Source of the DNA: Haloterrigena salifodinae
Lineage (GTDB): Archaea; Halobacteriota; Halobacteria; Halobacteriales; Natrialbaceae
Length of the DNA stretch: 64,000 bases
Direction of reading: 5' to 3'
Assembly (NCBI RefSeq): GCF_003977755.1
Contig: NZ_RQWN01000004.1
Coordinates: 124,001-188,000, forward strand
Below are positions 32,132 through 48,325 of the stretch, one piece after another (within the stretch, counting starts at the first letter, position 1; the number at the start of each line of letters is the position of its first letter). The notes under the pieces were generated by a model. That model did no database searches, was not told the origin of the DNA, and worked only from the letters and a program-made list of their open reading frames with translations. The position numbers were made by a program, and so were the translations under genes.

Positions 32132-32596
32132 AGTCTAGCAATCTTCCCGTCAGTCGGTTTAGCTGGGTGTCTCGACCAACTAGCGGCTACCAGTTCCGAC
32201 TCCACATCACTGCCCGATCCAGTGTCGGAACTCGAATTCGAGATCACCGATACCGATTTCGATCCAAGGGCTGATCCCGTGATCTCGTTTCCCGAGGAAG
32301 CCGACGAAGCGACGGTTGAAGGAACGATCTGGGTAGGATCGAAGAAATGTAACGAAGCGACGCTCACTGACGTTTCCTTCGACAGGGCGGACGGGTCTGT
32401 GGAGCTTCGTATCAGCCCCGGGAAATCGGATGAACACCCCAATAATCGCCTTCTCGGCGGTTCCTGCGATGATGTCTCGAGTTCGATCTGCTCGCGTTCG
32501 GCGTCGATAATTCGCCAGCGCATCAGTGTTCCCCTCCGAACTTGCAGTCGTCTCAGTGAGCGTCCTCTGGCAGCAATGCTCGGGTTGAATTCGTAA
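32132..32596 (+). pseudogene. Lipoprotein gene cut at its 5' end by the ISH3 element
   Basis: Directly after the target duplication the frame reads SLAIFPSVGLAGCLDQLA, a signal-peptide end with lipobox LAGC, then an acidic beta-rich body (ELEFEITDTDFDPR, VEGTIWVGSKKCNEATLTDV). The start codon and first signal residues are missing; none is found in frame left of the IS. The C-terminal part after about 32450 turns Ser/Arg-rich and is probably out of frame. Function unknown. Confidence 0.65.
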
Positions 32597-34988
32597 CGAC
32601 CAGTAAGCTACTTGCACCCATCGCAAGTGCGGCGAAAAGCGGATTTAGAAGGCCTAGCACAGCCAGCGGGATTGCAATTGCGTTGTAGCAAAACGCCCAC
32701 CCAATATTTCCTTTCACGCGTCGGTTTGTCGCCTGGGCGAGATCAAAGATAGTTTCGACAGACGAGAGATCGTCGTCGACGAGAGCGACGTCCGCAGCAT
32801 CAGCGGCCATCGCAGTACCGCCACCGAGCGCGATACCGAGGTCAGCTGCGGCTAACGCCGGCGCATCATTGGTACCATCACCGATCATCACTGTTCGCCC
32901 AGTCTCGTTGAATTGTTCGACAGTCGCTGCTTTTCCTTCAGGGGGGACACCCGCAAACACTTCGTCAACAGCACGATGCTCACGAAAGCTCTCCGCCGCT
33001 CGAGCATCGTCTCCGGTAAGGACAATGACCTCCCGTTCGGTATCCGAAATCGCGGTCAACGTCTCGTCCCAGTTCGCTCGTAGTTCGTCACCAACGACGA
33101 CAACGCCCTCGGTGGTTCCGTCGCGTCCGACAGCGACTGGAACCCGACCCGTTTCGCGGCTGCCGTCAATACGCTCGGCGACTACCGCAGGGACCTCCCA
33201 CCCCTGGTCACGGAACAGATCTGGATGGCCGACGATGATTTCGTCTCCGTCTACGATACCCGTAACACCGGTTCGATGACTATCAAAGGATTCGACGCGA
33301 TCATCTATCGAACTGGCGTCTGAGGCGGATTCAGCTGTACTACCGTCAGGCACCGGCCGTTCGGCGGCAATTGCTCGCCCGACCGGATGTGATGACCGCT
33401 CCTCAAGGAGCGCCGCCTTCTCAAGTAGGGCTGCCTCTAAATTGGTGTCGGTGACAGTCATCTCGCCCGTCGTCAATGTACCTGTCTTGTCGAAGACAAT
33501 GGTGTCCGCATCACTGATTCGCTCAAACACGGTATCGTCAAAGATGACAATCGAGCGTTCCAACGCGTCGCGGATCCCCGCAGCGACTGCGAGCGGTGTC
33601 GCCAGTCCGAGCGCACATGGACAGGAAACGATCAGTACTGTGAGACCGACGAGAAGGGCTGAGGCCCCATTACCGAGCAGGAGATACACGCCGGTGACGA
33701 TAACTGCGAGGACGAGAACAACCGGCACGAAGATCGTCGCTAATTTGTCTGCGAGCTTCTGAATACCGTGAGAGCCGCTCTGGAGGTCCCAGACAAGTTC
33801 AGCAATCCGATCAAGGCTGTTCGTAGCATCTTCTCCAACACGGATGGTCACCGCACCATTAGTCACCATCGAGCCGCCAACTACGGTATCCCTGATACGC
33901 TTCCGTACAGGAAGAGACTCACCAGTGACAACTGCTTCGTCGACGGCTGCGTCGCCATCAACTACCACACCATCAATGGGGATTCGCTCTCCAGACCGTA
34001 CTAGTACGTGATCATCAACCTCGAGGTCATCGACTGCGATATTTTCATATTCACCGTTTCCGCCAACGCGGCGGGCCTCATCGACCTGAATAGCCGTCAA
34101 ATCGGAGAGACGGTCGGTCGCCTGTTGCTTGATCGACGATTCATAATAGTTGCCGACCGTGACGATGACAATGATAGCAACAGTCACGTCGTAGTAGATG
34201 TGCTTGCCCCCCAGTGCGATCGAAAGTGTACTGTAGAGGTAGGCACTCACAGCTGCGATCGCGACGAGTAGATCCATATTTGGAGACCGCATCCGAATAC
34301 TGACGTACGCGCCCTGGAGGATTGGCTTTCCAGTCACTGCCAGGATGATTGTCGTGAGCGCCGCGATGACAACGTAGAAAGGCGTCGCAAGGGGACCCGC
34401 GAGTGTGGCTTCGAAGAACTCCGTGACCCGCTCACCGTAAAACAGTCCGCCGAAATACGTTGGATAGATGATGACAAGATACTGCAGCATCACGGACATC
34501 CCCATGAGAACACCGACCGCAACTCGCCCCATCTCCCAATTGTTCGCTCTCCGGCGGCTAAACGCATCATCACGTGAGTAAGCGCTGTAACCGAGACCAC
34601 TGATCGTCTCCTGAAGATCAGCCTTTGAGACACGATCTGGATCGTGATCGATCCGAACCGTGTCCGTCACATAGCTCGAGTTCGCGTCACTGACACCCTC
34701 AACTGCAGTTGCAGCCGATTCGATGAAGGCCTCACAGGTTGCACAGTGCATTCCATCAACTTCCAGAAACGTTGCTTCGTGATCCGGTGGAATCTCCCGA
34801 TTAGCCTCTGATTTGTCTCGAGCACGGCGGACGTCTTCCGCCTCGATATCGTCGACGTCGCCGAGCGCATTGTAGACATCGCGACAACCGATACAACAAA
34901 ACGGGTTCCCATCGTCGACGATATCACTTCCTTCTACGGGAAGCTCACAGAGCGTACAACCAGTTTTAGTTGTGTTATTATTGCTCAT
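32553..34988 (-). CDS. Copper-type P1B ATPase with N-terminal metal-binding cysteine region (CcoI/FixI-like)
   Basis: 811 residues. The N-terminus has a CTLC ... FCCIGC cysteine cluster (residues 11-35) like FixI/CcoI-type pumps. An HMA domain follows with GMHCATC (79-85). Membrane helices include the CPC ion site (SCPCALGLATP). The catalytic DKTGTLT, TGES and MIGDGTNDAPAL motifs are all present. P1B ATPases of this class export Cu(I) across the membrane; the CcoI subgroup supplies copper to haem-copper oxidases. The gene lies 9 bp downstream of a SafE/DsbD-like membrane protein, the usual partner of CcoI-type pumps. No oxidase genes are in the window. Confidence 0.9.
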   Translation of the reverse strand: MSNNNTTKTGCTLCELPVEGSDIVDDGNPFCCIGCRDVYNALGDVDDIEAEDVRRARDKSEANREIPPDHEATFLEVDGMHCATCEAFIESAATAVEGVSDANSSYVTDTVRIDHDPDRVSKADLQETISGLGYSAYSRDDAFSRRRANNWEMGRVAVGVLMGMSVMLQYLVIIYPTYFGGLFYGERVTEFFEATLAGPLATPFYVVIAALTTIILAVTGKPILQGAYVSIRMRSPNMDLLVAIAAVSAYLYSTLSIALGGKHIYYDVTVAIIVIVTVGNYYESSIKQQATDRLSDLTAIQVDEARRVGGNGEYENIAVDDLEVDDHVLVRSGERIPIDGVVVDGDAAVDEAVVTGESLPVRKRIRDTVVGGSMVTNGAVTIRVGEDATNSLDRIAELVWDLQSGSHGIQKLADKLATIFVPVVLVLAVIVTGVYLLLGNGASALLVGLTVLIVSCPCALGLATPLAVAAGIRDALERSIVIFDDTVFERISDADTIVFDKTGTLTTGEMTVTDTNLEAALLEKAALLEERSSHPVGRAIAAERPVPDGSTAESASDASSIDDRVESFDSHRTGVTGIVDGDEIIVGHPDLFRDQGWEVPAVVAERIDGSRETGRVPVAVGRDGTTEGVVVVGDELRANWDETLTAISDTEREVIVLTGDDARAAESFREHRAVDEVFAGVPPEGKAATVEQFNETGRTVMIGDGTNDAPALAAADLGIALGGGTAMAADAADVALVDDDLSSVETIFDLAQATNRRVKGNIGWAFCYNAIAIPLAVLGLLNPLFAALAMGASSLLVVTNSTRALLPEDAH

Positions 34989-34997
34989 TGTATCTTA

Positions 34998-35789
34998 CTA
35001 GCTAGTGTGACCACTTGCCGCTTCGATTCCGTCATAGAACGGTAATCTAGGATGCGGTAGATGAATCCCTAGACTCATCAATCCATGTGTGAGCAGGATG
35101 TAGCCGAGGACGACGAACGCAACCCCAAGCAATCTATGCACTCGTTGCCGATGAACCACGCCGACGGCGTCAATGATGGTTCCATACGCGAAGACAGTAG
35201 GAATTGTACCGAGTCCAAGTGCGCCAAGAGCTACTGCCCCACCGACAGGTGAGCCGATTGCAAACGCATACAGAAACGCTGGGTAGAGGATCGGGCACGG
35301 TAACAGGCCGTGAACTGCACCAAGTCCGACGATACCAGGGCCGTTCGCAAGACGATCAACACGTGCCGCAAGCCAGCCAGATATTCGCTCGAGGCCTGGT
35401 AAGTGAATACCACCAGTTGTTCGTCCCAGTAAGTAATATACCCCGACGACCATGACGAGGCCACCGATAATGAGACCGATTCCGCCACGGACGAACTCGA
35501 CGACAGATGAAAGCGATGCAGTCGTCACAAACAACGTACTGCCGAGTGCACCGAACACCGCCCCGAGAAGCGTATAACTCGCCGCTCGTCCGATGTTGAA
35601 CAGTGCATGCTGGCGCACCTCGTAGGTTGTAAGATGATTCTCCCGACCGCTATCTGATGTGCTGCTCTTCATTTGACTCGCATAAACGGTGACGAGCGGA
35701 CCACACATTCCGATACAGTGGGCACCGGCGAGGACACCGATTACGAGAAACAACAGCACGTCGACGCCAAGGAATGTGAATAGGTTCAT
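34998..35789 (-). CDS. SafE/TauE-like (DsbD_2) membrane protein, partner of the copper ATPase
   Basis: 263 residues, six to seven membrane helices. It begins with the family motif GAHCIGMCGPLVTVYAS and has a second conserved loop HGLLPCPILYPAF. Proteins of this type are found beside CcoI-like copper pumps and are linked to copper delivery for cytochrome oxidase. The downstream ATPase gene follows after 9 bp, so they form an operon. The C-terminal ALGTIPTVFAYG region is a further repeat of the fold. Substrate uncertain. Confidence 0.82.
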   Translation of the reverse strand: MNLFTFLGVDVLLFLVIGVLAGAHCIGMCGPLVTVYASQMKSSTSDSGRENHLTTYEVRQHALFNIGRAASYTLLGAVFGALGSTLFVTTASLSSVVEFVRGGIGLIIGGLVMVVGVYYLLGRTTGGIHLPGLERISGWLAARVDRLANGPGIVGLGAVHGLLPCPILYPAFLYAFAIGSPVGGAVALGALGLGTIPTVFAYGTIIDAVGVVHRQRVHRLLGVAFVVLGYILLTHGLMSLGIHLPHPRLPFYDGIEAASGHTS

Positions 35790-36374: not shown

Positions 36375-36701
36375 GTGAGAGTTCCAGGCGCGGTGGTCTG
36401 GTTCGACGAGGCGGTCGAAGATCTCGCGTGTCGTCGCGGCGTACTCTCGGCGGTGGATCGAGAGTTTCGCGAGACGATTGCAGCGATGATGATAGCCGAC
36501 ACGCACCCGGAACTCGAGGATCCGGACGACGTCAGGGAGGGTGATATCGATCTGGCTCTCGTCGAGGCCGGGCTCGGGGTGGACGTAGTCCCGGTCGATC
36601 CCGACGCTATCGAAGATCCCAAGTCGATCAGCGCGTTCTCACGACAATCGGACGGGGAAATCAGCAGCTATCCAGTGGATCAGAGCCGAGGAGGAACGTG
36701 A
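36375..36701 (+). CDS. Small acidic protein of unknown function, perhaps virus- or plasmid-derived
   Basis: 108 codons from GTG 36375. Coding-like composition (VVWFDEAVEDLACRRGVLSA, DTHPELEDPDDVREGDIDLA). The last 25 residues look out of frame. In another frame the sequence 36622-36760 continues with a different fragment (AAIQWIRAEEEREDRPQTFE), so the gene end may be damaged. Neighbours are gene fragments. No function is assigned. Confidence 0.45.
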   Translation: MRVPGAVVWFDEAVEDLACRRGVLSAVDREFRETIAAMMIADTHPELEDPDDVREGDIDLALVEAGLGVDVVPVDPDAIEDPKSISAFSRQSDGEISSYPVDQSRGGT

Positions 36702-36876
36702 GGATCGGCCGCAGACATTCGAAAAGGTGAACGAACGGGTTGGCGACCGATGCCCGAACGGACAGGATCGCGGCGAACGCCCAGCACCGCACCGCGGCCG
36801 CTGCTGCTGGCGACCGGTGGACAGTCGACCTAGAACACGCAAGATGGACAGTCCCACCGAAACAGCGCTCGCAATT

Positions 36877-37918
36877 GACAGTCCCTACTGTTGTCGAGTT
36901 CACGCATGAACTCGAGTTCAGTGATACGCTGGAATACAGGGTGTCAAAGAAAGTTCCCATACCCTCTCTGTGACTACCCGACAAACGGGAAGTACAGGCC
37001 AAGGACTTACCACAGAAGCTGTTCTCATCAGTCCACTCGCATAACTGCTAACCGAAACTGCTCGAACGACCGAATTAGCTCAACGAACTCGCCGGGATCA
37101 ACCGGTTTTTCGAGCACTGCATCTTCGTCTGCATCATGATCGAGATCCCGGGATTCAATCAAGTCTTCCTTCATCCCAGTCAGGACAATCACTGGCACCT
37201 GATCTAGTTCTGGGTGATGTTTGATCTCGTGTAGAACGTCCTCACCGTCTACTTTTGGCAGGTTCAGGTCAAGCAGTACAATGTCTGGTTGGGAAGCGTC
37301 TTCGTACTCGCCGCGTTGATAAATAAAGTCGAGTGCTGCTTGGCCATCAGTGACGGTGGTGAGTGTATTTCCGATGTTGCCGTCTGAGAAGGCTTCTTCG
37401 ATGAGACGAATATCGCCGGGGTTGTCTTCTACCAACAGTATCACCGCCCCTGATGAGCCACTTCCCATAGTCTGATACTCCGGGTGAATAGGTATAAGAA
37501 ATTCGGTGAGATGCCTATTAAGCGGACTTTCAAGGCTCGAGCATCAGCTATTGCTGAGGACTCTTGATCAGTAAGCACGTGTAGTGAACGGATAGTTCGA
37601 TCCAGAGTAGGTGAAAAGAACATCATCCGAATTGTTCTCTGATACCCTCTGAAACAAGTAAGATGGACAGTCCCTTGTTCTTACTCGAGTTCAGTGATTC
37701 GCTGGTCACCAGGGCTGACAGTCCACTCGGCTGGAAGCCGCCGAAGTCCAGGACATGCTGGTCACCAGAACTGACAGTCCCCCTGTTGCATGTTGGCTGA
37801 CACGGTGCCGTGTCGCTCGTGGATGGTCCTACTGAACTGGAGTTCACAAGTGACAGTCCCCTACTGTCGTCGAGTTCACTCATGAACTCGAGTCTACGTG
37901 ATCCGCTGTTCTGGAACC
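36877..37918. repeat. Diverged direct repeats flanking the response-regulator gene, with internal hairpin
   Basis: Segments at 36877-36942 and 37852-37918 are similar along their length, and part recurs at 37680-37703. The two long copies contain CGAGTTCA-nnnn-TGAACTCG, a perfect 8-bp hairpin stem. Confidence 0.6.
37028..37468 (-). CDS. Stand-alone response regulator receiver protein
   Basis: 146 residues, a single receiver domain. The acidic pocket LLVEDNPGD (E14, D15), the phospho-acceptor D67 in IVLLDLNLPK, the LTG switch threonine near 97 and K121 in VLEKPVDP are all present. It resembles Rcp1-type receivers that pair with bacteriophytochrome or haloarchaeal HATPase kinases. No output domain and no kinase gene are nearby. 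The gene is bracketed by similar non-coding repeats at 36846-36940 and 37664-37918, which suggests it was inserted into, or duplicated together with, the repeat zone. Confidence 0.88.
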   Translation of the reverse strand: MGSGSSGAVILLVEDNPGDIRLIEEAFSDGNIGNTLTTVTDGQAALDFIYQRGEYEDASQPDIVLLDLNLPKVDGEDVLHEIKHHPELDQVPVIVLTGMKEDLIESRDLDHDADEDAVLEKPVDPGEFVELIRSFEQFRLAVMRVD

Positions 37919-37937
37919 CCCGTGTTTCGCACAAGAC

Positions 37938-38075
37938 GGCACCCAACTAGTGCGGTCACGGTGGCCCAGATGGTGCGTCGATGCTGGCACCCCTAGCAGT
38001 GCATTAAGATAAGAGGAATTGATCTATGTTACTCACGTTGGCACCCAATAGGCCGGTCCTACCGGTTGGCACCCC
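37938..38075 (+). repeat. Four GGCACCC iteron-like repeats
   Basis: GGCACCC occurs at 37938, 37986, 38040 and 38069 in the same orientation, three of them followed by an (A/C)TAG-like tail. They sit where the GACWGTCC motif reverses orientation. Such arrays often bind replication initiators; no initiator gene is seen here. Confidence 0.55.
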
Positions 38076-38142
38076 CCCACACTGACGCTTTGCGTCTTTG
38101 TTGGCCTATTTCGGCAGCAGAGGACTGTCCTCACTCTCGTCG

Positions 38143-38580
38143 GTGGTGACTGTCCTGTGCAGTCCCACAGCCATGCTTTGCTGGACCTCACTCAGTCCCT
38201 GGGGTTACCTCATCGCTGTCGCCGTTGTGTCCTACTGTTGCAGCCTCTCGCTGCGCGATCTCCTACTGTGCGGTACACTGGTCTGTTGGCGGCTTGCCGT
38301 TCTCCCGGTGTTGACTGTCCGCTGGCAGTACACTCTGCTTTGGGGGACCACTGCTCGCACTGCTGGACGTCCCTCTCTTGCCGGGAGAGACCAGCGCTGT
38401 GCTGTCCTAGCGCTGTCGCTATCGTTACGCGGTCTCCAGAGTCGCGCTGCTCGAGTTCACGTGGTCACAGTTTCTCGCTGTCCTGGATGGCGGCGCTGTC
38501 GGCGCTCTCAGTGCTGACTGTCCTGCTGCGCGGTATACTCTGCTCTGCGGGCGCTGCTCGCATTGCTGGACTGTCCCCCT
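38143..38580. repeat. Degenerate ~80-bp repeats in pyrimidine-rich DNA
   Basis: The stretch 38501-38577 aligns by eye with 38291-38370, including a GACTGTCC site and the sequence actctgct. Weaker copies are at 38143-38200 and 38235-38300. The plus strand is rich in CTG and TCC over 38100-38900. Confidence 0.55.
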
Positions 38581-39063
38581 TCATCTCTGCACCTTTCCGC
38601 TCTGGGTCTGATACACCCTGACTGTCCCACAGTCTCATTCCGGCTGTCTTCCTCGCCGTCACTCTCGAGTGGACTGTCCCACTGCTGGTTGTTCCCTACT
38701 CTGGGTACCTGGAGCTCACTCGAGTTTCCGTCGGCTCTCTGCGTCCGCTGGGGTGCCCCTGTTCGCGTCATTTTGTCCATCCTCTCTCTTGTGATATATT
38801 CGGGTGCCATCCTCTGCTGTTGCACTCGTCAGTCTGACTCTGGTTCCCACCTCGATTTCCCCGTGGTTTCTGTGCTGAACTCTCCTCGAGATCTGTCGCG
38901 CACATCTGTGACAGGATGTTGATACTACTCTGGATTTTCCCACTCTGCGTTATTTTTTGGTTTTCGGCTGGCTCATGTACAGCACTCGGTGTTTCTTGAC
39001 TCAATTGAATCCAACCAGAATATTATTGTTGGAGTAGTTCGTTAGCCTTGAGTATAGTAGACT

Positions 39064-39573
39064 ATGACATCTGATACATCCGCCACCCTCTCCCCCAAAG
39101 AAGCCGACGAAATCCAGGAAAAACTTGACCAGGGAAATGAACATCGACGCAACATCCTGAGTGCACTGGTAAGCGCTGAGAGCGACACTCTGAACACGTC
39201 AGAAATCCGAAATCGAGCCAACGTCCCTAGCGGGAGTATGAATCACTATCTCGTTACCCTCACCGAGTGGGGCATCCTCGAAGAGACGGGGGAGCGAGAG
39301 TACAGCCAAGGCGGCGGACGGAAAGCCCGCGTCTGGCGGCTCAGCGAGAAGGGAGAAGAATTCGTCGAAGAGTACTCAGATGCACTCACTCCGCCAAAAG
39401 GGGCCGCAACAGCGGAGCGCGTGACAGCACTGGAAAATCGGATCGAAGATCTCGAAGACGAAACGCGCAAACGCCGGAAAACGATCGTAGAGATACTGAA
39501 AGTGATTGCCGAATCTCAAGATAAACAGACCCAACAGCAGGTCTCAGAGATTGTGACCAACGCCGATTTATAG
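39064..39573 (+). CDS. Winged-helix DNA-binding protein with C-terminal coiled coil
   Basis: 169 residues. A winged HTH covers about 25-105 (RNILSALVSAESDTLNTSEI, GSMNHYLVTLTEWGILEE, RVWRLSEKGEEFV), and a charged coiled coil (RVTALENRIEDLEDETRKRR) runs at 118-150, suited to dimerisation. It borders the repeat-rich zone at 37-39 kb and ends tail-to-tail with the VirD4-like gene, overlapping it by 6 bp. It may bind the nearby palindromes to control replication or transfer of the element; this is inference. Confidence 0.75.
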   Translation: MTSDTSATLSPKEADEIQEKLDQGNEHRRNILSALVSAESDTLNTSEIRNRANVPSGSMNHYLVTLTEWGILEETGEREYSQGGGRKARVWRLSEKGEEFVEEYSDALTPPKGAATAERVTALENRIEDLEDETRKRRKTIVEILKVIAESQDKQTQQQVSEIVTNADL

Positions 39574-42384
39574 GAGTCGGTCAAGCGATTCCATGTTCTT
39601 GTTGTTCGTGTTCTCGTTGCTGCTAGCAGTCGTCTCGCTGGCTGCCTCGCTGTTATCGTCTTCTTCTGGATCGGGCTCCAGATCGTCGTTGCTCTCATTC
39701 TGGGGCTCGTCGCCGCCGTCGTCACGATCGTCACGACCGAGACTCGAGAGCGGGATGGTCATCCCGTCAACGTAGACCTTGAGGTCGTCGACGGACAGCG
39801 TCTCGTCCTCGTCGATCGTCGGCACCACGATGATGTACCAGTCCTTGCCAGGCTCCGGGGTCTCGCCGTTGAACTCGTATTCCGGGATTATCGGCGTTTT
39901 GATGGTTCGCATACTCTTGTCGACCTCGTTGTCGACCGCTGGGTAGCGATCGATGTCGGTGAAGACACTCTTGGCGTCGGGGAACCGAGCGTGCTCCTCG
40001 CCGGCGCCATCTCGGAGAATAATCTCGCCGGTGGTTTCGTCGCGGACCCACACGTCTTCGCGAGCGCCGGGACGATACACTCTTTCCCCGTCAATACTCA
40101 GGGGTCGAAGGTTGTAGAACCGGATTTTTCCGGAAACGGAGTGTCGCTCTCGAGCGCCTCGTGGCTCCTCGGCCAGCGTTTTCCAGACGTTCTCGGCGAC
40201 GTCCTCTCGGCAGACGAATAGACAGTTCTTACCCTCGCTGAACGCACTCGCGAGGTTGCGGACGGTCTGTCCCTGTTTCGTCGATCCTGTGCTCTTCTCG
40301 GCCTCGAGAACGGCCTCTCGGCCGCCAGTGAGAGCGTCGACCGTCGGATACTCTTCGCGGAACTCCTCGAGCGCTTCGGCGATTGCCACGGGATCGGCGT
40401 CACTGTCGACCTCAAGCAGCGGCATCGGATCAAGCGTCCCATCTGGAAGGCTCTTGGTGCCCTCGCCTTGCTCGGCGATTGCCACGTCGGCACCGAGCTC
40501 GTTGAACGCGGGGTACGCGTCCTGCAGAACGAGTGCGTGCAGTGCACCGCCGGAACTCTCGTCGTCGCCTACGTCCTGGATGGCCGATATAGTCTCGTCG
40601 CCGACAGACAGCCATAGATCGCCGTCCCGCTCGGTCTCCGAGAGCATCGAGTCGGGAATCGGCTGCAGAACGTTCCGCCAGAGGCGTTCTCGGCTGTCTG
40701 TCCGAGTCTCGTCATGTTCCGGGAGCGCGGCTCGAATCACGTCCTCGCACTCCTCGAGTGGGATCGAGAGGTCATCCCGGTCCGACCGGAGTGCTTCATC
40801 GTGGACGGCCTTGCAGACGTCTCCTTGCGTGCTCTCGTCGGTAAGGAGATCGACGCCCGACTCGGCGAGTCCACCGAATGGCAGCTCTCGTTGAATCTGT
40901 TCGTCAGTGAGTGGCTGCTCGCCGTACCGCTCGAGACTGTCGGAGATAATCTCGTCGACGGCGCCTTTGCCCCGAAGCGGCGGGTAGGGCGCGAATGCCG
41001 AGAGTTTCAGCGGCCTCGAGTACTCGCCCCCGCCGGTTGGGAGCCGAGTCCATACTTTGTACTTCTCGGTTTGTATGAGGTCGTCTGGATTGTACCCCTT
41101 GAACCGGTCTGTCAAGATTTTCGCGTCATCGGCGTCGTTCGCCTTGAACGTGACCAGATTGTCAGCGTTATTCTTGAACGGCTTCAACACGCTCTCGTCG
41201 AGTTGTGACGGGTATTGGACGGCAGCAGTGACGCTCAGGTTCATCGATCGCGCTCTCGCGAGCATCGATTTGATGTCAAGTTGCTCACTGGCGATGTCGT
41301 CGAACTCGTCGGCAAATATGAAGTAGGGGTCCGGGTCCATCGTCTCGTACGACCGATTTTGCACCGCTGACCAAATCCCACGCATCGCGGCGAGTGTCGT
41401 CAGTCGTTTCACGTCTGTACTGTCGACAGGCGTGCGAAGGACGACAATCCGATCCTCATCGATGAGGTCGCGCCAGTCGATCGTTGACTCTCGCCGGGCA
41501 ATGATCCGACGCACGACGCCATTCTCAACCCACGCTTTCACACGCTTCATGAGCGGGCGGAGTTGTTCCTCGTCCATCTCGGCGACTTGCTCGAGGAACT
41601 CGCCGACATAGGGGTCGGGACACTCCTCAGCGAACGTCTCCCGGCGCTCCTGGTTCAACAGGATGAAATAGAAGTCAATAACGCCGTAGTTGGGCCGCTC
41701 CGGGTCGGCGTTCGCCTTCATCATGGCTCGAGCCATCGATTCGGTCACTGACTCCATCGTCGCGTGAAGTTCGCCTTTCGCGGCTAACGCGGCTTTCAGA
41801 TTCTCGAGGCGACTTTCAATTCCCGTCTCGAGTTCGACGTCACTGGCTGTCTCCGGGACATCAAGCAGGTTCAGACCGATCTCCTGCTCGTTCTCGGTCC
41901 CCGGCTCAATCCAAACCACGTCATCGAGCCGCTGTTCTGGGAGTTTCCGAAGGAGTTCCCGTGAGTCCTTGCCCTTGGGATCGAAGTACGCGAACCCGTG
42001 TCCAGAGTACGCCAACTGGATCATCCAGTTGAGTAGTTCCGTCGTTTTGCCGGCGCCAGAAACGCCAGCCACCCAGAGGTGTTGGGCGAGTGACCCGAAC
42101 GGGATCCCGGCCTCGCGGAACCCTTCTTGTGGATCTTCAGTGTATCCGACCCACAAGTCCTTCTCCGGATTACTGTGGCCCTCCTCGAGAATCCGACGGA
42201 CGGCAGGGCCAGCAACGACACCTTCCGCTTCGGTCTCTGTGATGGCCTCGACGCCGCCGATACGTTCCACACCAGTCGGCGTGATATCGTACGTCTCTCC
42301 CGTGGCGGTCGTCTCCTCGTCCTGGACGTCCTCGCTCTCGTCGCTGTCGTCGTCGGAACTTGATCCAAATCCAAACAGGTTCAT
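39568..42384 (-). CDS. VirD4/TraG-like coupling ATPase with large C-terminal extension
   Basis: 938 residues. After a short acidic leader the FtsK/HerA/VirD4-type ATPase core begins: LWVAGVSGAGKTTELLNW with Walker A 107-114, HGFAYFDPKGKDSRELL, IGLNLLDV, and Walker B YFIFADEFDDIAS near 355. A QYPSQLDE segment follows, where related enzymes have their Gln switch. From about residue 480 to 938 there is a long extension with no family I recognise; its last 70 residues are a low-complexity acidic tail. It lacks N-terminal membrane helices. It overlaps the preceding gene by 4 bp. It should feed DNA to the type IV channel encoded by the same operon. Confidence 0.82.
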   Translation of the reverse strand: MNLFGFGSSSDDDSDESEDVQDEETTATGETYDITPTGVERIGGVEAITETEAEGVVAGPAVRRILEEGHSNPEKDLWVGYTEDPQEGFREAGIPFGSLAQHLWVAGVSGAGKTTELLNWMIQLAYSGHGFAYFDPKGKDSRELLRKLPEQRLDDVVWIEPGTENEQEIGLNLLDVPETASDVELETGIESRLENLKAALAAKGELHATMESVTESMARAMMKANADPERPNYGVIDFYFILLNQERRETFAEECPDPYVGEFLEQVAEMDEEQLRPLMKRVKAWVENGVVRRIIARRESTIDWRDLIDEDRIVVLRTPVDSTDVKRLTTLAAMRGIWSAVQNRSYETMDPDPYFIFADEFDDIASEQLDIKSMLARARSMNLSVTAAVQYPSQLDESVLKPFKNNADNLVTFKANDADDAKILTDRFKGYNPDDLIQTEKYKVWTRLPTGGGEYSRPLKLSAFAPYPPLRGKGAVDEIISDSLERYGEQPLTDEQIQRELPFGGLAESGVDLLTDESTQGDVCKAVHDEALRSDRDDLSIPLEECEDVIRAALPEHDETRTDSRERLWRNVLQPIPDSMLSETERDGDLWLSVGDETISAIQDVGDDESSGGALHALVLQDAYPAFNELGADVAIAEQGEGTKSLPDGTLDPMPLLEVDSDADPVAIAEALEEFREEYPTVDALTGGREAVLEAEKSTGSTKQGQTVRNLASAFSEGKNCLFVCREDVAENVWKTLAEEPRGARERHSVSGKIRFYNLRPLSIDGERVYRPGAREDVWVRDETTGEIILRDGAGEEHARFPDAKSVFTDIDRYPAVDNEVDKSMRTIKTPIIPEYEFNGETPEPGKDWYIIVVPTIDEDETLSVDDLKVYVDGMTIPLSSLGRDDRDDGGDEPQNESNDDLEPDPEEDDNSEAASETTASSNENTNNKNMESLDRLL

Positions 42385-43439
42385 CGGTTCTCACTCTTGT
42401 TCGAGTCCGCAGGAACCCGCGAGCCCTCTTGCGTGTGTTTCCAGTCGATCCGTGGTGTCTCGATCTCCTCGTTCGGGATGTGTGCAGCGCTGGCGAGCTC
42501 GTCGACGGTCAAGATCATCTCCCGCTCGGACCACGCCCTCGAGTGGACGTCGTTGATCAGCGTCCGAGCATCAGCGACCGACTCGGCGACGAATCCTTGC
42601 TCTGTCGTCGCGTTATAGTACTTCACGAACATCCCCGCCACGCCTCGAGCGCGAGCTTCGGCCTCAGTCTGGTTCGGAGAGGCCGCGAGAACGCGGATAT
42701 TCGTGCTAAAGGCCTGTTGCCCGCGCTGTTGCTCGACGATCTTCGCCGACTGTTTCTCTTTCGAAGATGCGTCCCGAACGCGGGGATTGATCCACCCCTT
42801 CACGTGACCGTCGCGAAGGCCCTCGGCGACATCATCGACGGATTCGCCACGCCAGCCGCCGTCGGTCCAATTCGCCGGCTCCGGGCGGAATGCGACCTGG
42901 ACGACGACGGCCGTCTCCTCGGTCGAGAGCATCTCGCTGGTGATCTCGCCGTAGGGATCGCGCTCGAATCCCTCGCCGTCACGGAAGTGGTGAATCGGGT
43001 AGTAGTAGTGTCGCGCAAGGCTCAGGCGAGCACCAGCGACGTACTCACCCGCCTCGAGCGGCGGGAAGCCCTCGCCGCCGGCCTCGAAAACGGCGCTGTT
43101 GGCGTAGTTGTTGCCGACGCGTCGGCGGAACTTGTCAGCCGCGGACTCGCTTGCGGCGTGCATGAAGAACCGAATGCGCTCGCCGTCGAACCAGAGCTCG
43201 TACGTGTGCGAGTCGCTCGTGTTCTTGCCGCGAAAGTTGGTCGTTACGTCATGGACCGACTGGAGCAGGCCTGCCGCGTCGACCATGCCCTGATTCTCGG
43301 CATGTGGCTGAATCTGCAGGAGGACACCAGGTGTCTCGTCTGCGGTCTGTATGTGCGAACTCGTGAGCTGTGTCGAGGCGTAGTTCGATGGATTCGGATC
43401 TGAGGCATTGTCACCGAACAGCCGAGAAAGGAGCGACAT
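42381..43439 (-). CDS. Separate coupling-protein N-terminal module (T4SS-associated)
   Basis: 352 residues from ATG 43439; a longer frame to 43559 only overlaps the VirB4 gene and is rejected. ATG and the upstream TAA share a base (TAATG). The pattern YYYPIHHFRD ... DPYGEITSEM ... VVVQVAFRP ... FSTNIRVLAA and the end ELASAAHIPNEEIETPRIDW resembles, to my reading, the domain that precedes VirD4-like ATPases within single proteins of some bacterial elements. Here it is an independent gene directly before the ATPase gene, with a 4-bp overlap. It probably forms a complex with that ATPase. The family match should be treated as an inference. Confidence 0.6.
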   Translation of the reverse strand: MSLLSRLFGDNASDPNPSNYASTQLTSSHIQTADETPGVLLQIQPHAENQGMVDAAGLLQSVHDVTTNFRGKNTSDSHTYELWFDGERIRFFMHAASESAADKFRRRVGNNYANSAVFEAGGEGFPPLEAGEYVAGARLSLARHYYYPIHHFRDGEGFERDPYGEITSEMLSTEETAVVVQVAFRPEPANWTDGGWRGESVDDVAEGLRDGHVKGWINPRVRDASSKEKQSAKIVEQQRGQQAFSTNIRVLAASPNQTEAEARARGVAGMFVKYYNATTEQGFVAESVADARTLINDVHSRAWSEREMILTVDELASAAHIPNEEIETPRIDWKHTQEGSRVPADSNKSENR

Positions 43440-46396
43440 TACGCCGTCACCTCCCCATACTCGGCGCGAATGTGCTCCTCGAGGCTCACGTCGTCCTCGG
43501 GCTCGTACGTCAATACGGCCGTCTCGAAGTCTGATGCCCGAATTCGAGTCCGGAACCACCCCTCGATCGCATTGAAGTTGATCAAGGCCTCGGAGTACCC
43601 CTGTCCCGAGTCGCCTCGAGTGGCCCGCTCTCTGATGAACTCGTACTGCAGGTCATTGAAATCGAAGAGTTCGGCGGTCTCGCGATCGAGGTCCGTCTGT
43701 GTAAACTGGATCGTCGTTGCCTGTTTGCGGATCGTGTCCTTGTGATCGTCCTCATCCTCACCGGAGACGAACTCCGCGGGCGACTGACTAGCGAACCAGA
43801 CGCCCGCCTCGTAGTGTCTCCAGTGGCGGGCCGCCCGCTGCAGCCACTCGACAGTCTCCGCAGACTCGAGCAAGTAATGGGCCTCGTCGATCAGGAACAG
43901 CGTCTCTCCGGGCGCGTTCTGGACAGCCTCATAGACTCTGTCGAGCATCAGCTGCAGCATGACGGACTTGCCGACCGCGCCCTCGTTCTCCATCTGTTGC
44001 AGATCCAGGTAGGAGACGCCGCCGGGCGTGATCTCGGCACTGCCCGTCCCGGCGAGTTCGGCGTACTCACGACCCTCCTGGAAGCCAGAGAGCTTGCGGA
44101 GTAGCGTCGCCGCGTTGCTCTCGATCTCGGTAACCTCCATTGTCGACTCGGAGAGCGCAGGGCCTTCGGGATTGTTCGCGATCTCGCGAAGTGTGTCGAT
44201 GTAGTCGGCCATCGTCGGGCTCTCGAGGCCGTGCGTCGAGTAGTCGTCCGGCTTGATCCCTGCCTTCCGGTAGGTTTCGTATGCGCACTCCTTGATCAGC
44301 GTCGTGTACTCGCCAGCATCGACACCCTGCTCGCGGAGGACGCCGCTGATGAACGCGTTGACGGCGTCGATCTTCATCCCGAACGGGTCGATCCCGGTCT
44401 CACGAACACGCTCGGGCGTCTCGGAGATATTCAGCGGATTGATGGAGTCCTTGCCGCCGAGAACGACGTGTGTCCCGTTCAGTAGTTCGGCGATCCCGGC
44501 GAAGTCGCCAAAGGTATCGCACAGCACGACCGTCCGATCGTCCTCGGCGAGATACCAGCGGACGATTTTCTGTAAGGTGGAGAACGACTTCCCGGAGCCA
44601 GAGTCGCCAATAAACAGCGCATGCGCGGGGCCACCAACAGCGGCCGGATCCGCCGAGACCTCGCTTCCGTCCTGCAGTTTCCGGCCCCACTCGACGCCGT
44701 TCTCGTGACGAATCTCGACCGAGAGTCCCGGGAATGCGGCACCAAGGACGCCGCCCAAGACCATCGTATAGCGGTCGCGATGACTGACGTCGTCGTACAC
44801 GTCAGGCGCAGTCGGACTCCCGGAAACGTAGAGGTCGCGCTGTCGGGTATCGGGCGAGAGGAGCGTGAGACTCGCGGGCGTTGACTCAGCGACATCGCGG
44901 ATGTCCTCGCACCGATCCTCGAGCGCCCGGCGCTTCTCGACGTCGAAGTTGAGATCGTCCGAATTCGCGCCGTTTTCGATCGTTGTCTCTGCTCGCTCGA
45001 GTGCGGCTCTCGTCCCGGCGCGAACAGTGATGTACCCGTTGAGGTCCCACGGACGAACGGACGTGTTATGGAGGAGCTTGTACGCCTGGACGTACGCCTC
45101 CATGTCGTCACTGACCGTCATCGCTGAGATATCAGTCGCCTCTTCGCGCTCCTCGATATCGGCATTGATCTCGGCAATTGCGTGTTCGAGCTCGTACTCG
45201 GTATCCGCTTTATCCCGTGCTCGAGCGTGGAGTGTCACGTCGACGTCGACGCCGCTCATCGTCACGAGCCCCTGCAAGAATCCAGGATCGGGTTCGACCG
45301 GCCACTCGGCGATCCAGTAGGTTCTGCAGTATTGATCGCCGACGCGGATGTGATCGGAGTCGATGTCATAGCTTGGCGCCGAGAGGATCTCCTCGAGCCG
45401 TCCCTCTCGAACCTCAGTCACATCGTCGAAGTTGTGATCAACGCCGGACCAATAGCGGCTGTGGAGGAGCGCGTTTTCGGCGGGACCAACGCGTTCGACC
45501 TCGACGCCGGTCACAGCGCCGAAGACTGTCCCAACCCGCTCGAGACGCTTCTCGAGGGCAGCAGACATCCGACTGTACCATTCCTCGTCGTCGACACCGG
45601 CATCAGAGCCGGAGCCGAAGACCTCTTTTATCCCGTCGAGAACAGAGGCGGACAGATCGAGGCCGGTTGTGTCGACGTCTTCGCTGTCGACCGCGACGAC
45701 GACGTAGTGGCGCCACTGCTTCGCGTCCCAGCGCGGTGTCTCGCTTCGCTCATACCAGTCGGCGACGTCGTGCAAGAGTTCGCGAGCGCCAGCCCAGTTG
45801 TCGCCAGCGAGGTGCTCTGAAAACGCAGCCTCACGGTACTTGCCGACCACGTCCGAGGGATCGAATTCGGTTGTCGTCGAATAGTATCGAAAGCCATGCT
45901 CGAGCGTCTCGTCGATCCGCGTCGAGAGCGACGAGAGGACTGCCTGCAGCTCGTTGCGTGTCTCAGTGTCTGTATTCCGCGGCTCGATCCGAAGCAAGCC
46001 AACCATCCGCCCATCAGCCATGACCGCCGCGCCGTCACGGCGGATCTTCCGGACGCCATGCACGAGGTCGTCAGCGGCGTCCTCTTGAGGGATCGGATGC
46101 TGTCGTTTCTGCCGGAAGTAGCGAACAGGGGAGCGCATTTTGTCGAGTCCAGTCGTGGTGTCGTCAGCCCGGCTCGCAAACACTGGGCCGATTGCCGCCG
46201 CCGGCAGCCCAATTGATGTGAGTGGAATGATGAGGTCGTCCGCTCCCACGGTCAGTGCGCCGATCGCGCCGCCGAGAGCGATGAATCCCGGAGTGCCGTA
46301 CCACAGGTCTCGAGCGCGGTAGTCGCCGATTTTCAGTCCGGATTCCACATACGGGAGCGTGATCTGAGACGGGTCCGTTCCGCCGTCATCATTCAT
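43439..46396 (-). CDS. VirB4-like conjugation ATPase with VirB3/PrgI-like membrane N-terminus
   Basis: 985 residues. The N-terminus (about 30-75) has two hydrophobic helices like VirB3/PrgI proteins. A VirB4 N-terminal domain follows up to about 540, and then the ATPase: Walker A IGDSGSGKSFSTLQ (597-604 core), VVLCDTFGDF, Walker B ETLFLIDEAHYLLE, and motif WRHYEAGVWFASQSPAEF. VirB4 drives pilus or channel assembly in type IV secretion. The fused VirB3-like part fits systems in which VirB3 and VirB4 are one chain. The gene lies 77 bp downstream of the VirB6-like gene and overlaps the coupling-module gene by 1 bp. Confidence 0.87.
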   Translation of the reverse strand: MNDDGGTDPSQITLPYVESGLKIGDYRARDLWYGTPGFIALGGAIGALTVGADDLIIPLTSIGLPAAAIGPVFASRADDTTTGLDKMRSPVRYFRQKRQHPIPQEDAADDLVHGVRKIRRDGAAVMADGRMVGLLRIEPRNTDTETRNELQAVLSSLSTRIDETLEHGFRYYSTTTEFDPSDVVGKYREAAFSEHLAGDNWAGARELLHDVADWYERSETPRWDAKQWRHYVVVAVDSEDVDTTGLDLSASVLDGIKEVFGSGSDAGVDDEEWYSRMSAALEKRLERVGTVFGAVTGVEVERVGPAENALLHSRYWSGVDHNFDDVTEVREGRLEEILSAPSYDIDSDHIRVGDQYCRTYWIAEWPVEPDPGFLQGLVTMSGVDVDVTLHARARDKADTEYELEHAIAEINADIEEREEATDISAMTVSDDMEAYVQAYKLLHNTSVRPWDLNGYITVRAGTRAALERAETTIENGANSDDLNFDVEKRRALEDRCEDIRDVAESTPASLTLLSPDTRQRDLYVSGSPTAPDVYDDVSHRDRYTMVLGGVLGAAFPGLSVEIRHENGVEWGRKLQDGSEVSADPAAVGGPAHALFIGDSGSGKSFSTLQKIVRWYLAEDDRTVVLCDTFGDFAGIAELLNGTHVVLGGKDSINPLNISETPERVRETGIDPFGMKIDAVNAFISGVLREQGVDAGEYTTLIKECAYETYRKAGIKPDDYSTHGLESPTMADYIDTLREIANNPEGPALSESTMEVTEIESNAATLLRKLSGFQEGREYAELAGTGSAEITPGGVSYLDLQQMENEGAVGKSVMLQLMLDRVYEAVQNAPGETLFLIDEAHYLLESAETVEWLQRAARHWRHYEAGVWFASQSPAEFVSGEDEDDHKDTIRKQATTIQFTQTDLDRETAELFDFNDLQYEFIRERATRGDSGQGYSEALINFNAIEGWFRTRIRASDFETAVLTYEPEDDVSLEEHIRAEYGEVTA

Positions 46397-46473
46397 GATA
46401 CATATTGTATTATGGTTTTAGCCATAATGTTTGTTGGGGTACGTAGTACAGAACGAAGCCGAAAAAGAGCGGA

Positions 46474-47811
46474 TTACTGGAAGCCGCGGTCTCGATCTCG
46501 CTCAAACTGCTCTCGAGTGCGGCTACCATCGGTCGAGTAGCGTCCCGTGCTGTCCGACGACTGGATTGATCCCACCTGGCCGATCCTTCGGCTCGAGGCC
46601 GACGAGACGCCTGGAGAGTCGGTTGAGTGCGGCGCTCCGGACCTGGTGTCCGTAGTCGAGCCGCGCCACGTCTCGACGCGCTCTTTGACGTGACCGACGC
46701 GCTCGTTCGCACTCTGTGCGTGTTCCTTGCCCTTGTGCCGACTCATGGCACTCATTCCGAGACCGACGTTGGCGGCTCGATCGGCCGTCTGCAGCGCCGA
46801 CCACGGGAGATAAACACCGACGAATCCGAGTCCAACGATCGTCGCAATCAGTCCGATAACCGGCCCTGAGACTCCCGCATCCCACGGGAGTAGGTACAGT
46901 AACCGCAAGAACATCGCTTGCGTGATATTGACGCCGATTAGGAGTCCGAATAGCCAGACAACGAAGTTGCCGAGGCTTGCGACCGTCCCCTCGCCGTACG
47001 CCTTGCAGCCCCATGCGACCGGCCAGAAGGCCACACACAGGTGGATCAAGACGTGTTGTGCGATAATCGCGAATAGTCCAAGGACGATTACGCCGGCATA
47101 GGCATAGAGCAAGATGAACGCCAACATCCCACCTGACAGGATTTTTCCCATCCCGTCTGGTGTCCCAAGTAACTCCTCGCCGCCCGGAGCGAACGCGGCC
47201 GACGCCTGAGCGCCGAAGTGCAAGAGAAAGCCGGTCACTTGCCACGTCAAGATGATCATCACGAACGCAATGAGCGCGGTCCGTAACTTCTGGCGTCGGC
47301 GAAACGGATCGTTGTGCCGAAATGCGAGCGTCGCAGCGCCGCCGACGAGAACGACACCCAGGCTCGTCGTCCACATCGTCATCTCCCAAATCCCCGGCCA
47401 CCAGCCGTTTTGTGGGTTCGTCCACGAGGTTGGATCGTCGTGTGTTCCCGGCGCCGGGACGTTCGCGATGATTGCGTTTACGAAGTTGAGCCCAGCTGTC
47501 ACGGCTCCGGCACCCATGTTCATCAGCCACTCGAGGGCGCCATTCAGCCACGAATAGGGGTTGAATGTCCCCCCGAGGAGACCGCCACCTTCTTTTTCCG
47601 ACTCGACCTCGAGTGTCTCGTTTCCGAGCGTCACGTTTCCAGACGCCTGGTCTCCAAAGGATTCGTTGTTGTACGTGTTGTTTCCGAGTTCGTCCTCGGG
47701 CTGGTTCATCTGTGCGGCCGCCCCGATCGGGACGGTCGCCGTGATCAAGAGGAGGATGACTGCAACGCGAGCGATACCTGCTGCTCGTCGATCCTGTGTG
47801 TCTGAAAGCAT
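46474..47811 (-). CDS. VirB6/TrbL-like polytopic membrane channel protein
   Basis: 445 residues. A cleavable-type signal (VAVILLLITATVPIGAAAQ) is followed by an outside acidic, Asn-rich stretch, then about seven hydrophobic segments between 115 and 345 (e.g. LGVVLVGGAATLAF, VIVLGLFAIIAQHVLIHLCV), and a hydrophilic charged C-terminal tail of about 90 residues. This layout and the position next to VirB4 fit the VirB6/TrbL inner-channel component. Primary sequence similarity to bacterial VirB6 is not obvious, so the call rests on topology and context. Confidence 0.7.
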   Translation of the reverse strand: MLSDTQDRRAAGIARVAVILLLITATVPIGAAAQMNQPEDELGNNTYNNESFGDQASGNVTLGNETLEVESEKEGGGLLGGTFNPYSWLNGALEWLMNMGAGAVTAGLNFVNAIIANVPAPGTHDDPTSWTNPQNGWWPGIWEMTMWTTSLGVVLVGGAATLAFRHNDPFRRRQKLRTALIAFVMIILTWQVTGFLLHFGAQASAAFAPGGEELLGTPDGMGKILSGGMLAFILLYAYAGVIVLGLFAIIAQHVLIHLCVAFWPVAWGCKAYGEGTVASLGNFVVWLFGLLIGVNITQAMFLRLLYLLPWDAGVSGPVIGLIATIVGLGFVGVYLPWSALQTADRAANVGLGMSAMSRHKGKEHAQSANERVGHVKERVETWRGSTTDTRSGAPHSTDSPGVSSASSRRIGQVGSIQSSDSTGRYSTDGSRTREQFERDRDRGFQ

Positions 47812-47836
47812 TGATGTTCTTCATCAAACCACCCGC

Positions 47837-48325
47837 TTAGAACGGGACACCAGTCACGGCCATGCCAACGATACCACTCCACTCGATGCACGAGAACGCG
47901 CCGATGCCGACGCGGTCAAGCGCCATTCCGAAGATTGCCGGGAAGAACGCCCCAACTGCGGTAATTCCGGCGCCCATCATCTTCTCGCGGCCCTCACGCT
48001 TCTTCTCGCTCCGGCCTTGCCCCAGGTCTTTGAATGCCATCGTTCCCCGGAAGGCGGCAAGTAGGAGGAGCAACACGACTGCAGCACCGAGTCCGAGACC
48101 GATGAGCTCGCCGAGCCCAGATTGACATATCATCCCCGCTGCCTCGCTAGCCTGCTGTGCCATTGCCGTCCCAATGGTGAGATTCACCGCCGTGACTGTC
48201 ACGACCGCCCGCCGAATGGGCGATGAGAACAGTATTTCGCGAGGGTTCTGGAATCCGCGGCGCACCTGTCGGAGCGTACTCGTCACACCGTTCTTTTCAT
48301 CCTCGGCTATCTCGTTTGGTGACAT
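47837..48325 (-). CDS. Small membrane protein of the conjugation operon, VirB2/pilin-like
   Basis: 162 residues. A basic N-terminus and signal-like helix (VVTVTAVNLTIGTAMAQQ) precede two further hydrophobic segments (GELIGLGLGAAVVLLLLLAA and GAGITAVGAFFPAIFGMAL) separated by a basic loop (RSEKKREGREK). A VirB2-type pilin has this short, signal-plus-two-helix plan and lies at the head of such operons. It is 25 bp upstream of the VirB6-like gene. Two cysteines in the mature part may pair. The pilin role is inferred from layout and position. Confidence 0.6.
   Translation of the reverse strand: MSPNEIAEDEKNGVTSTLRQVRRGFQNPREILFSSPIRRAVVTVTAVNLTIGTAMAQQASEAAGMICQSGLGELIGLGLGAAVVLLLLLAAFRGTMAFKDLGQGRSEKKREGREKMMGAGITAVGAFFPAIFGMALDRVGIGAFSCIEWSGIVGMAVTGVPF

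Follow-up and report, generated by a model that had tools for sequence, protein, structure and literature searches.

A two-armed GACWGTCC array beside a VirD4/VirB4-type operon, a possible conjugative-transfer locus of haloarchaeal megaplasmids

The analyzed stretch of Haloterrigena salifodinae DNA (64,000 nucleotides, hereafter the window) comprises bases 124001-188000 of contig NZ_RQWN01000004.1 (C4, 460,411 bases) and contains an array of the motif GACWGTCC next to the gene of a small winged-helix protein (Table 1). Thirteen such sites were counted in 36846-38680, six GACAGTCC sites in the left arm and seven GACTGTCC sites in the right one, and their exact positions bore out the sequence-only reading, according to which the two kinds lie unmixed on either side of 38000 and five sites are full GGACWGTCC palindromes. 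An extra site in the left arm, GGACAGTCG at 36820, brings the total to 14, seven with central A and seven with central T; with random labels, such a perfect separation would be expected once in 3,432 cases for a given order and once in 1,716 for either. The density of the 13 sites is far beyond chance, as 5,000 dinucleotide shuffles yielded 0.26 sites on average and three at most. According to the motif count on contig C4, 14 of its 46 sites fall in this 1.9 kb, a second cluster of five is located at 190.5 kb, and other 1.9-kb stretches contain no more than two each. The second cluster (L009; C4:190565-190923, sites at 190,565-190,786), lying just outside the window, is a copy of the left arm only and is devoid of the inserted element E1 (see below), as though the sites 36847 and 37666 were joined.

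The array had been described as flipping its orientation near 38 kb, and this holds for the central base of the motif, which is A on the left and T on the right, but not for the outer bases. Upon a true inversion, the right-hand non-palindromic sites would read GGACTGTCN; in a tally over ten related loci, 24 of the 25 non-palindromic T-sites read NGACTGTCC, i.e., had the outer orientation NGAC.GTCC, so that the flip concerns the central base only. The same outer orientation was found in 23 of the 33 non-palindromic A-sites.

At the flip point, the four GGCACCC repeats of one orientation reported earlier are present (the c+ block), while two inverted copies (GGGTGCC), previously overlooked, close the array on the right (the c- block); these six copies within 37901-38850 compare with a shuffle mean of 0.23 and a maximum of 3. 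The small hairpin next to the c+ block is largely kept in the relatives, reading GACGC-ACA-GCGTT in Haladaptatus, and is absent in one of them (L006). The right side is indeed pyrimidine-rich and A-poor, as had been noticed: 38100-38899 contains 10% A with an AT skew of -0.48, and lies inside the sole region of C4 with |AT skew| of at least 0.45 in 800-bp windows. The GC-skew switch at 38 kb, proposed earlier as a check, was not observed (-0.06, -0.11, -0.12 and -0.01 at 37.6, 38.0, 38.4 and 38.8 kb, respectively), the quantity that changes there being AT skew, not GC skew.

In agreement with the earlier description, the array neighbors a winged-helix gene and a conjugation operon, with the winged-helix gene and the VirD4/VirB4-type genes located at 39064-48325. 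For the winged-helix protein, a single-sequence AlphaFold2 model (mean pLDDT 76), MarR/Sso10a-like according to Foldseek at low TM-scores, tells no more than that it is a winged helix. Judging by the layout of their hydrophobic segments, the 445-aa and 162-aa operon proteins may be VirB6-like and VirB2-like, respectively. No relaxase family match was obtained among the operon proteins scanned, and no nick site was found in the array region. Since transcription of the operon runs in the direction of the array, the latter is not the operon promoter. The same gene order was found in plasmid 2 of Haloterrigena sp. KLK7 and, judged by gene lengths, in plasmid 3 of Haladaptatus pallidirubidus.

Table 1. 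Features of the array and its surroundings (window coordinates unless a locus is named)
Feature	Coordinates	Strand	Remarks
Outer A-block copy	36820-36884	+	Sites 36820 (GGACAGTCG), 36847, 36877 (GACAGTCC); duplicates part of the A-block (37650-37910)
Element E1	36936-37649	.	Terminal inverted repeats AGGGTGTCAAAGAA / TTCTCTGATACCCT; carries the response-regulator gene; sits between two A-block copies
Response regulator gene, 146 aa	37028-37468	-	PF00072, E 1.5e-16
A-block	37666-37859	+	GACAGTCC at 37666, 37717, 37773, 37852
c+ block	37938-38074	+	GGCACCC at 37938, 37986, 38040, 38068
Small hairpin GACGC-TTT-GCGTC	38084-38096	.	Between c+ block and first T-site
T-block	38123-38679	+	GACTGTCC at 38123, 38148, 38313, 38516, 38569, 38620, 38672; top strand poor in A; spacing of the last three sites ~51 bp, similar to the relatives
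c- block	38751-38808	-	GGGTGCC (inverted GGCACCC) at 38751, 38802
Winged-helix protein, C-terminal coiled coil, 169 aa	39064-39573	+	Weak Pfam/NCBIfam wHTH matches
VirD4/TraD-like coupling ATPase, 938 aa	39568-42384	-	TIGR03743 E 1.7e-6, PF12696 E 7e-4; convergent with winged-helix gene
Soluble operon protein, 392 aa	42381-43559	-	No family match; AlphaFold2 pLDDT 34
VirB4-like ATPase, 985 aa	43439-46396	-	NF045971 E 5e-29
445-aa protein	46474-47811	-	About six hydrophobic segments (layout)
162-aa protein	47837-48325	-	Two hydrophobic segments (layout)
E2 copies	L003:7073-7545; L002:7137-8598; L294 (pHTUR03 ~176.7-177.2 kb)		

A BLAST search of plasmids with 36700-39060 returned 27 records, from haloarchaeal genera throughout. 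Ten two-armed loci were compared, belonging to Natrialbaceae (the window; L001, pHTUR02; L002 and L003, Haloterrigena sp. KLK7; L004, Natrinema zhouii; L005, Natrinema sp. SYSU A 869) and to Haladaptatus (L006, H. halobius; L007 and L286, two plasmids of H. pallidirubidus; L189, Haladaptatus sp. DYF46); the count leaves out L138 (whose array runs off the end of the locus and looks consistent by eye), L174 and L185 (from the Haladaptatus plasmids already represented by L286 and L007) and the copies consisting of a left arm only, L009, L282, L283, L284 and L285. The order A-sites, GGCACCC, T-sites is kept at all ten, on Haloterrigena, Natrinema and Haladaptatus plasmids alike, and a terminal GGGTGCC is present at nine, with no exact copy in L001 (in L006, one of the two copies sits among the T-sites). 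Within hand-set core spans, which leave the L006 T-site at 5245 outside, 44 A-sites lie to the left and 49 T-sites to the right of the c+ block, so that 93 of the 94 sites obey the order, although the loci are kin by descent and the sites do not amount to 94 independent trials; the lone exception, an A-site at L005:4426, is close to an ISH3 insertion. The last three T-sites are spaced by ~49-58 bp in the window, L002, L003, L005, L007 and L286.

When the array was aligned with the four Haladaptatus arrays, gaps being counted as mismatches, identity reached 65-82% in the columns of the sites and 71-88% in those of GGCACCC versus 44-46% in the others, with Fisher p values of 1.2e-3 to 3.6e-11 for the excess in site columns. 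With L005, site columns were 86% and the others 63% identical, and with the close relative L004 site columns displayed no excess (61% versus 63%). Identity over the T-block as a whole is 78-92% within the five Natrialbaceae loci that were compared, falling to 56-64% across families; the T-blocks of the co-resident plasmids of H. pallidirubidus (L007 and L286) are 97.4% identical.

The zone is not free of genes, contrary to the earlier description, as the left arm is interrupted by the element E1 with its response-regulator gene. The ends of E1 (AGGGTGTCA...TGATACCCT) recur at unrelated sites of Natrinema zhouii (L295:2500-2567, L296:2501-2583), and in other plasmids the same ends enclose other genes or none (L002, L284, L003), a 78-aa gene being carried in L002 and a 221-aa gene in L284, both at the place that E1 has in the window. 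E1 represents a dispersed type of element, with different small genes between conserved ends, occurring in several haloarchaeal plasmids. A second type, E2, with the ends GGCTCTAT(C/T)GAAA (GGCTCTATYGAAA), is found at the first T-site on each of the two KLK7 plasmids and encloses different genes in them; across its copies the cargo is either an amphi-Trp gene or a hypothetical gene with or without an HTH gene. The copy in L003 is flanked on both sides by GACTGTCC, and L002 has a near-copy of this site. Site-specific insertion of cassettes at GACWGTCC, suspected from these two loci, was weakened as an idea by the E2 copy of pHTUR03, which has other flanks. The flanks in L003 and L002, along with the shorter copy at C4:190.5 kb, speak for the array being a recombination or insertion scaffold, in which GACWGTCC would be the target or crossover site and the array would grow by nested insertion of gene-bearing elements. 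We find this very improbable, considering that E2 of pHTUR03 lacks motif flanks, that E1 is flanked by other sequences, that the T-block is free of such insertions at most loci, and that its spacing is conserved across families.

The winged-helix gene lies to the right of the right arm at all ten loci, in a decayed form in L001 (a frameshift, as read from the alignment), L007 (truncated, residues 1-62 only) and apparently L005, where the match is ~1 kb away from an annotated 97-aa remainder, with an IS5 transposase between them. A VirD4-like gene, convergent where intact, or its remnant is present next at eight loci (the window, L001, L002, L003, L004, L005, L286 and L189, in the last case ~3.5 kb further on), while tblastn detected no VirD4 remnant in L006 and L007.

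The sequence-only reading offered the winged-helix protein as a possible binder of the array, and the comparison speaks against it. Another plasmid of this genome, C8 (51,335 bases; circular, its contig ends overlapping in an 18-bp tandem repeat, L044-L046), encodes a VirD4 protein 84% identical and a winged-helix protein, and has no GACWGTCC array, with only 3 scattered sites in 51 kb. The winged-helix protein of C8 shares 71% identity with its L002 counterpart and 69% with that of L106, while the protein of the window shares 26% with L002, 50% with L286 and 93% with L004; thus, a relative of 71% identity goes without the array and proteins of 26-30% identity share it. The C8 protein also has nearly the same segment as that of L002 around the presumed recognition helix, and the winged-helix protein was dropped as a simple GACWGTCC binder. 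In the place of the array, just upstream of its winged-helix/VirD4 pair (71-84% identical to array-bearing relatives), C8 possesses the 18-bp tandem TTTGGAGATTTGCTCGAG in ~5 copies per contig end. The array seems to follow the host, while the winged-helix gene does not: the two H. pallidirubidus plasmids have winged-helix genes of different types, the L007 remnant being 79% identical to that of the window. A recogniser shared by co-resident plasmids, or gene conversion between them, would explain near-identical arrays next to differing winged-helix genes. The likeness of the L007 and L286 arrays could itself mean that arrays were recently exchanged or underwent gene conversion.

These observations also bear on whether the array is an operator of the winged-helix gene, or whether the T-block is transcribed leftwards as a purine-rich long non-coding RNA. 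The strong conserved depletion of A in the top strand, with an A content of 8-10% over four T-blocks (8-9% in Haladaptatus T-blocks), is in line with such a role, which nevertheless appears improbable: a single 169-aa gene would be expected to need less than 1.9 kb with 14 sites, the winged-helix type does not track the motif, the Rfam search gave no match at E 0.5, and the folding of the T-block is not clearly above that of shuffles (z -1.16, -0.25). As single-stranded DNA, 37650-38100 of the window folds well (z -4.4 for the plus and -3.6 for the minus strand); a conserved single-strand structure was dropped from consideration, with z of -0.18 in L286, -1.08 in L003 and -0.79 in L006.

Two of the three functions proposed earlier, replication origin and partition site, are disfavored by the layout of the contig. 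The Orc1/Cdc6 gene is located at C4:427,864-428,961, ~265 kb from the array, and is surrounded at 427,586-429,551 by 9 of the 29 TTTCCGTCG-type repeats of C4, on both strands; this region (L292), with its initiator gene and repeats with ACCCC runs in two orientations, is the probable replication origin. The ParA gene (AAA_31 match) is found at C4:433,262-433,792, ~270 kb from the array. Like haloarchaeal Orc1/Cdc6 origins with their origin recognition boxes, the array has repeats of both orientations arranged about a defined point, but its repeat is different and it has beside it neither an initiator gene, the orc1/cdc6 match of C4 lying elsewhere, nor a ParA gene, as a ParABS system would have. 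With both genes and the origin-type repeats so distant, the array is unlikely to be a replication origin or a partition site.

An iteron-type origin, with GGCACCC as iterons and the winged-helix protein as Rep, would be compatible with direct repeats standing next to the winged-helix gene, several of them ~25-27 bp apart in L006 and L007. It is nevertheless hardly probable, given that the replicon has an Orc1/Cdc6 gene accompanied by repeats; moreover, the locus comparison revealed no conserved AT-rich patch in the array, the neighboring gene is broken in L001 and truncated in L007, yet these plasmids persist, and the close winged-helix relative on C8 is without the motif. In a study of pR1SE-like plasmids, repeats of 25 bp or more, either direct or palindromic, are listed near the core genes as possible origins, along with a protein, ORF25, whose predicted structure is VirB4-like (PMC10818511).

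A centromere-like or incompatibility site, on which a complex for plasmid stability would assemble next to the transfer genes, has a model in the stbDRs of plasmid R388. These are 9-bp direct repeats in two sets of five, with 2 nt between repeats, which precede the operon that encodes StbA, are bound by this protein and act in both stability and transfer (PMC3098194). Since these 9-bp arrays by oriT serve both ends at once, the centromere reading has to be retained, albeit as an unlikely one. The array, too, consists of short (8-9-bp) sites next to a gene of a small DNA-binding protein and near transfer genes, and the co-resident Haladaptatus arrays are nearly the same despite differing winged-helix genes. 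On the other hand, in contrast to the tight stbDRs, its sites are mostly ~50-80 bp apart and its neighbor is not a likely binder; the ParA gene accompanies Orc1/Cdc6, the winged-helix type of the neighbor does not track the array, and identical centromeres on co-resident plasmids are expected to conflict.

Transfer origin, the third function proposed earlier, is the best supported of the three, in view of the conserved place of the array beside winged-helix, VirD4-like and VirB4-like genes. The array may well be a cis-acting conjugative-transfer locus (oriT/clt-like) of haloarchaeal megaplasmids with a small VirD4/VirB4-type secretion operon, a reading that we hold tentatively and infer from synteny and conservation. 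It draws on the fixed order of the sites at ten loci, the constant winged-helix neighbor and the frequent VirD4-like one, the two ATPases of the operon and its direction, which leaves the array no role as its promoter, the better conservation of the motif columns with respect to the four Haladaptatus arrays, the separate Orc1/Cdc6-ParA locus of C4, and the parallel with Streptomyces clt loci discussed below. Against the transfer reading stand the operon, where no relaxase-like domain was found, the single-strand fold of the window, which is not kept in three relatives, the motif columns of L004, which are no better conserved than the rest, and the absence of a VirD4 remnant from L006 and L007, as well as the left arms that occur alone. 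So do C8, in which 18-bp tandem repeats replace the array beside a closely related VirD4 gene, and more distant VirD4 relatives, as none of 20 loci (L106-L125, chosen from many VirD4 places and in some cases, e.g., L121, cut by contig ends) carries the array; the idea that the array marks this VirD4 family in general was rejected. Other repeat arrays at these 20 loci were only short runs of ~2-3 copies, and no relative of the VirD4 protein was found in viral contigs.

Among known systems, the nearest working parallel would be the clt loci of the Streptomyces plasmids pSVH1, pWTY27, pIJ101 and pJV1, non-coding arrays of 7-9-bp repeats with inverted repeats beside a translocase gene, clt being recognized in pSVH1 by the winged-helix domain of TraB (PMC3583192, PMC5365140). 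The array resembles them as a set of short repeats in non-coding DNA beside a translocase gene, with the winged-helix gene here placed between the array and VirD4. It differs in its size (~1.2-1.9 kb versus ~50-175 bp) and in its motif, a palindrome with a position-dependent central base combined with a second, interleaved motif; instead of one FtsK/TraB-type translocase whose own winged helix binds the repeats, there are VirD4- and VirB4-like ATPases, membrane proteins and a separate winged helix which does not track the motif. The oriT regions of F and RP4 are likewise non-coding and repeat-rich and lie by a gene of a small DNA-binding protein and transfer genes. The same is described for R388 (PMC3098194). 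The array shares with these T4SS oriT regions the adjacent genes of a VirD4-type coupling protein and a T4SS, but no relaxase family was matched among the operon proteins scanned and no nic-like site was found. Many haloarchaeal megaplasmids carry VirD4/VirB4-type genes. In the literature collection searched, no report of an oriT or clt for megaplasmids of this type was recognized, and the four motif strings occur in one unrelated paper.

If the array acts in transfer, the GACWGTCC palindromes would be the binding sites of a trans-acting factor, and the GGCACCC repeats those of a second factor or of a further component of the complex. A direction would be conferred on this nucleoprotein complex by the fixed order A - c+ - T - c-, and the c+ block, enclosed between two oppositely marked arms, could be the place where the coupling ATPase is loaded. 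A more specific version, which we regard as doubtful, is that of a transfer start site of a new build in haloarchaea, composed of interleaved GACWGTCC and GGCACCC, with its direction set by the central base alone (A left, T right) and with a recogniser that is not the plasmid's own winged-helix protein but a factor common to the co-resident plasmids of a strain, so that transfer modules would be exchangeable and the start site constant. The arrays common to plasmids with different transfer genes suggest such a common recogniser, and the position-dependent central base would be an unusual rule for a putative binding site. Archaeal plasmid transfer is a little-known process, and a conserved, bounded candidate of ~1.2 kb beside transfer genes makes the choice of plasmid DNA in haloarchaea directly testable.

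Among 391 halobacterial genomes, including the same-genus relatives G026 and G027, which match Haloterrigena sp. KLK7 and Haloterrigena turkmenica plasmids by coordinates, the triple-T pattern was matched in four, two of them real (this genome, G000, and G026) and two with other sequence (G195, G280), and the triple-A pattern in seven, four real (G000, G026, G027, G077) and three with other repeats (G177, G371, G382), as judged from the matched letters. A wider pattern scan of genome contigs yielded at least 119 stretches, the only haloarchaeal ones among the 80 matches listed being four Haladaptatus loci, and a scan of viral contigs yielded 18 raw stretches. To the left of the array, gene content varies between the plasmids; in the window, genes of a heavy-metal P-type ATPase and a DsbD-like membrane protein are situated there, at 32553-35789.
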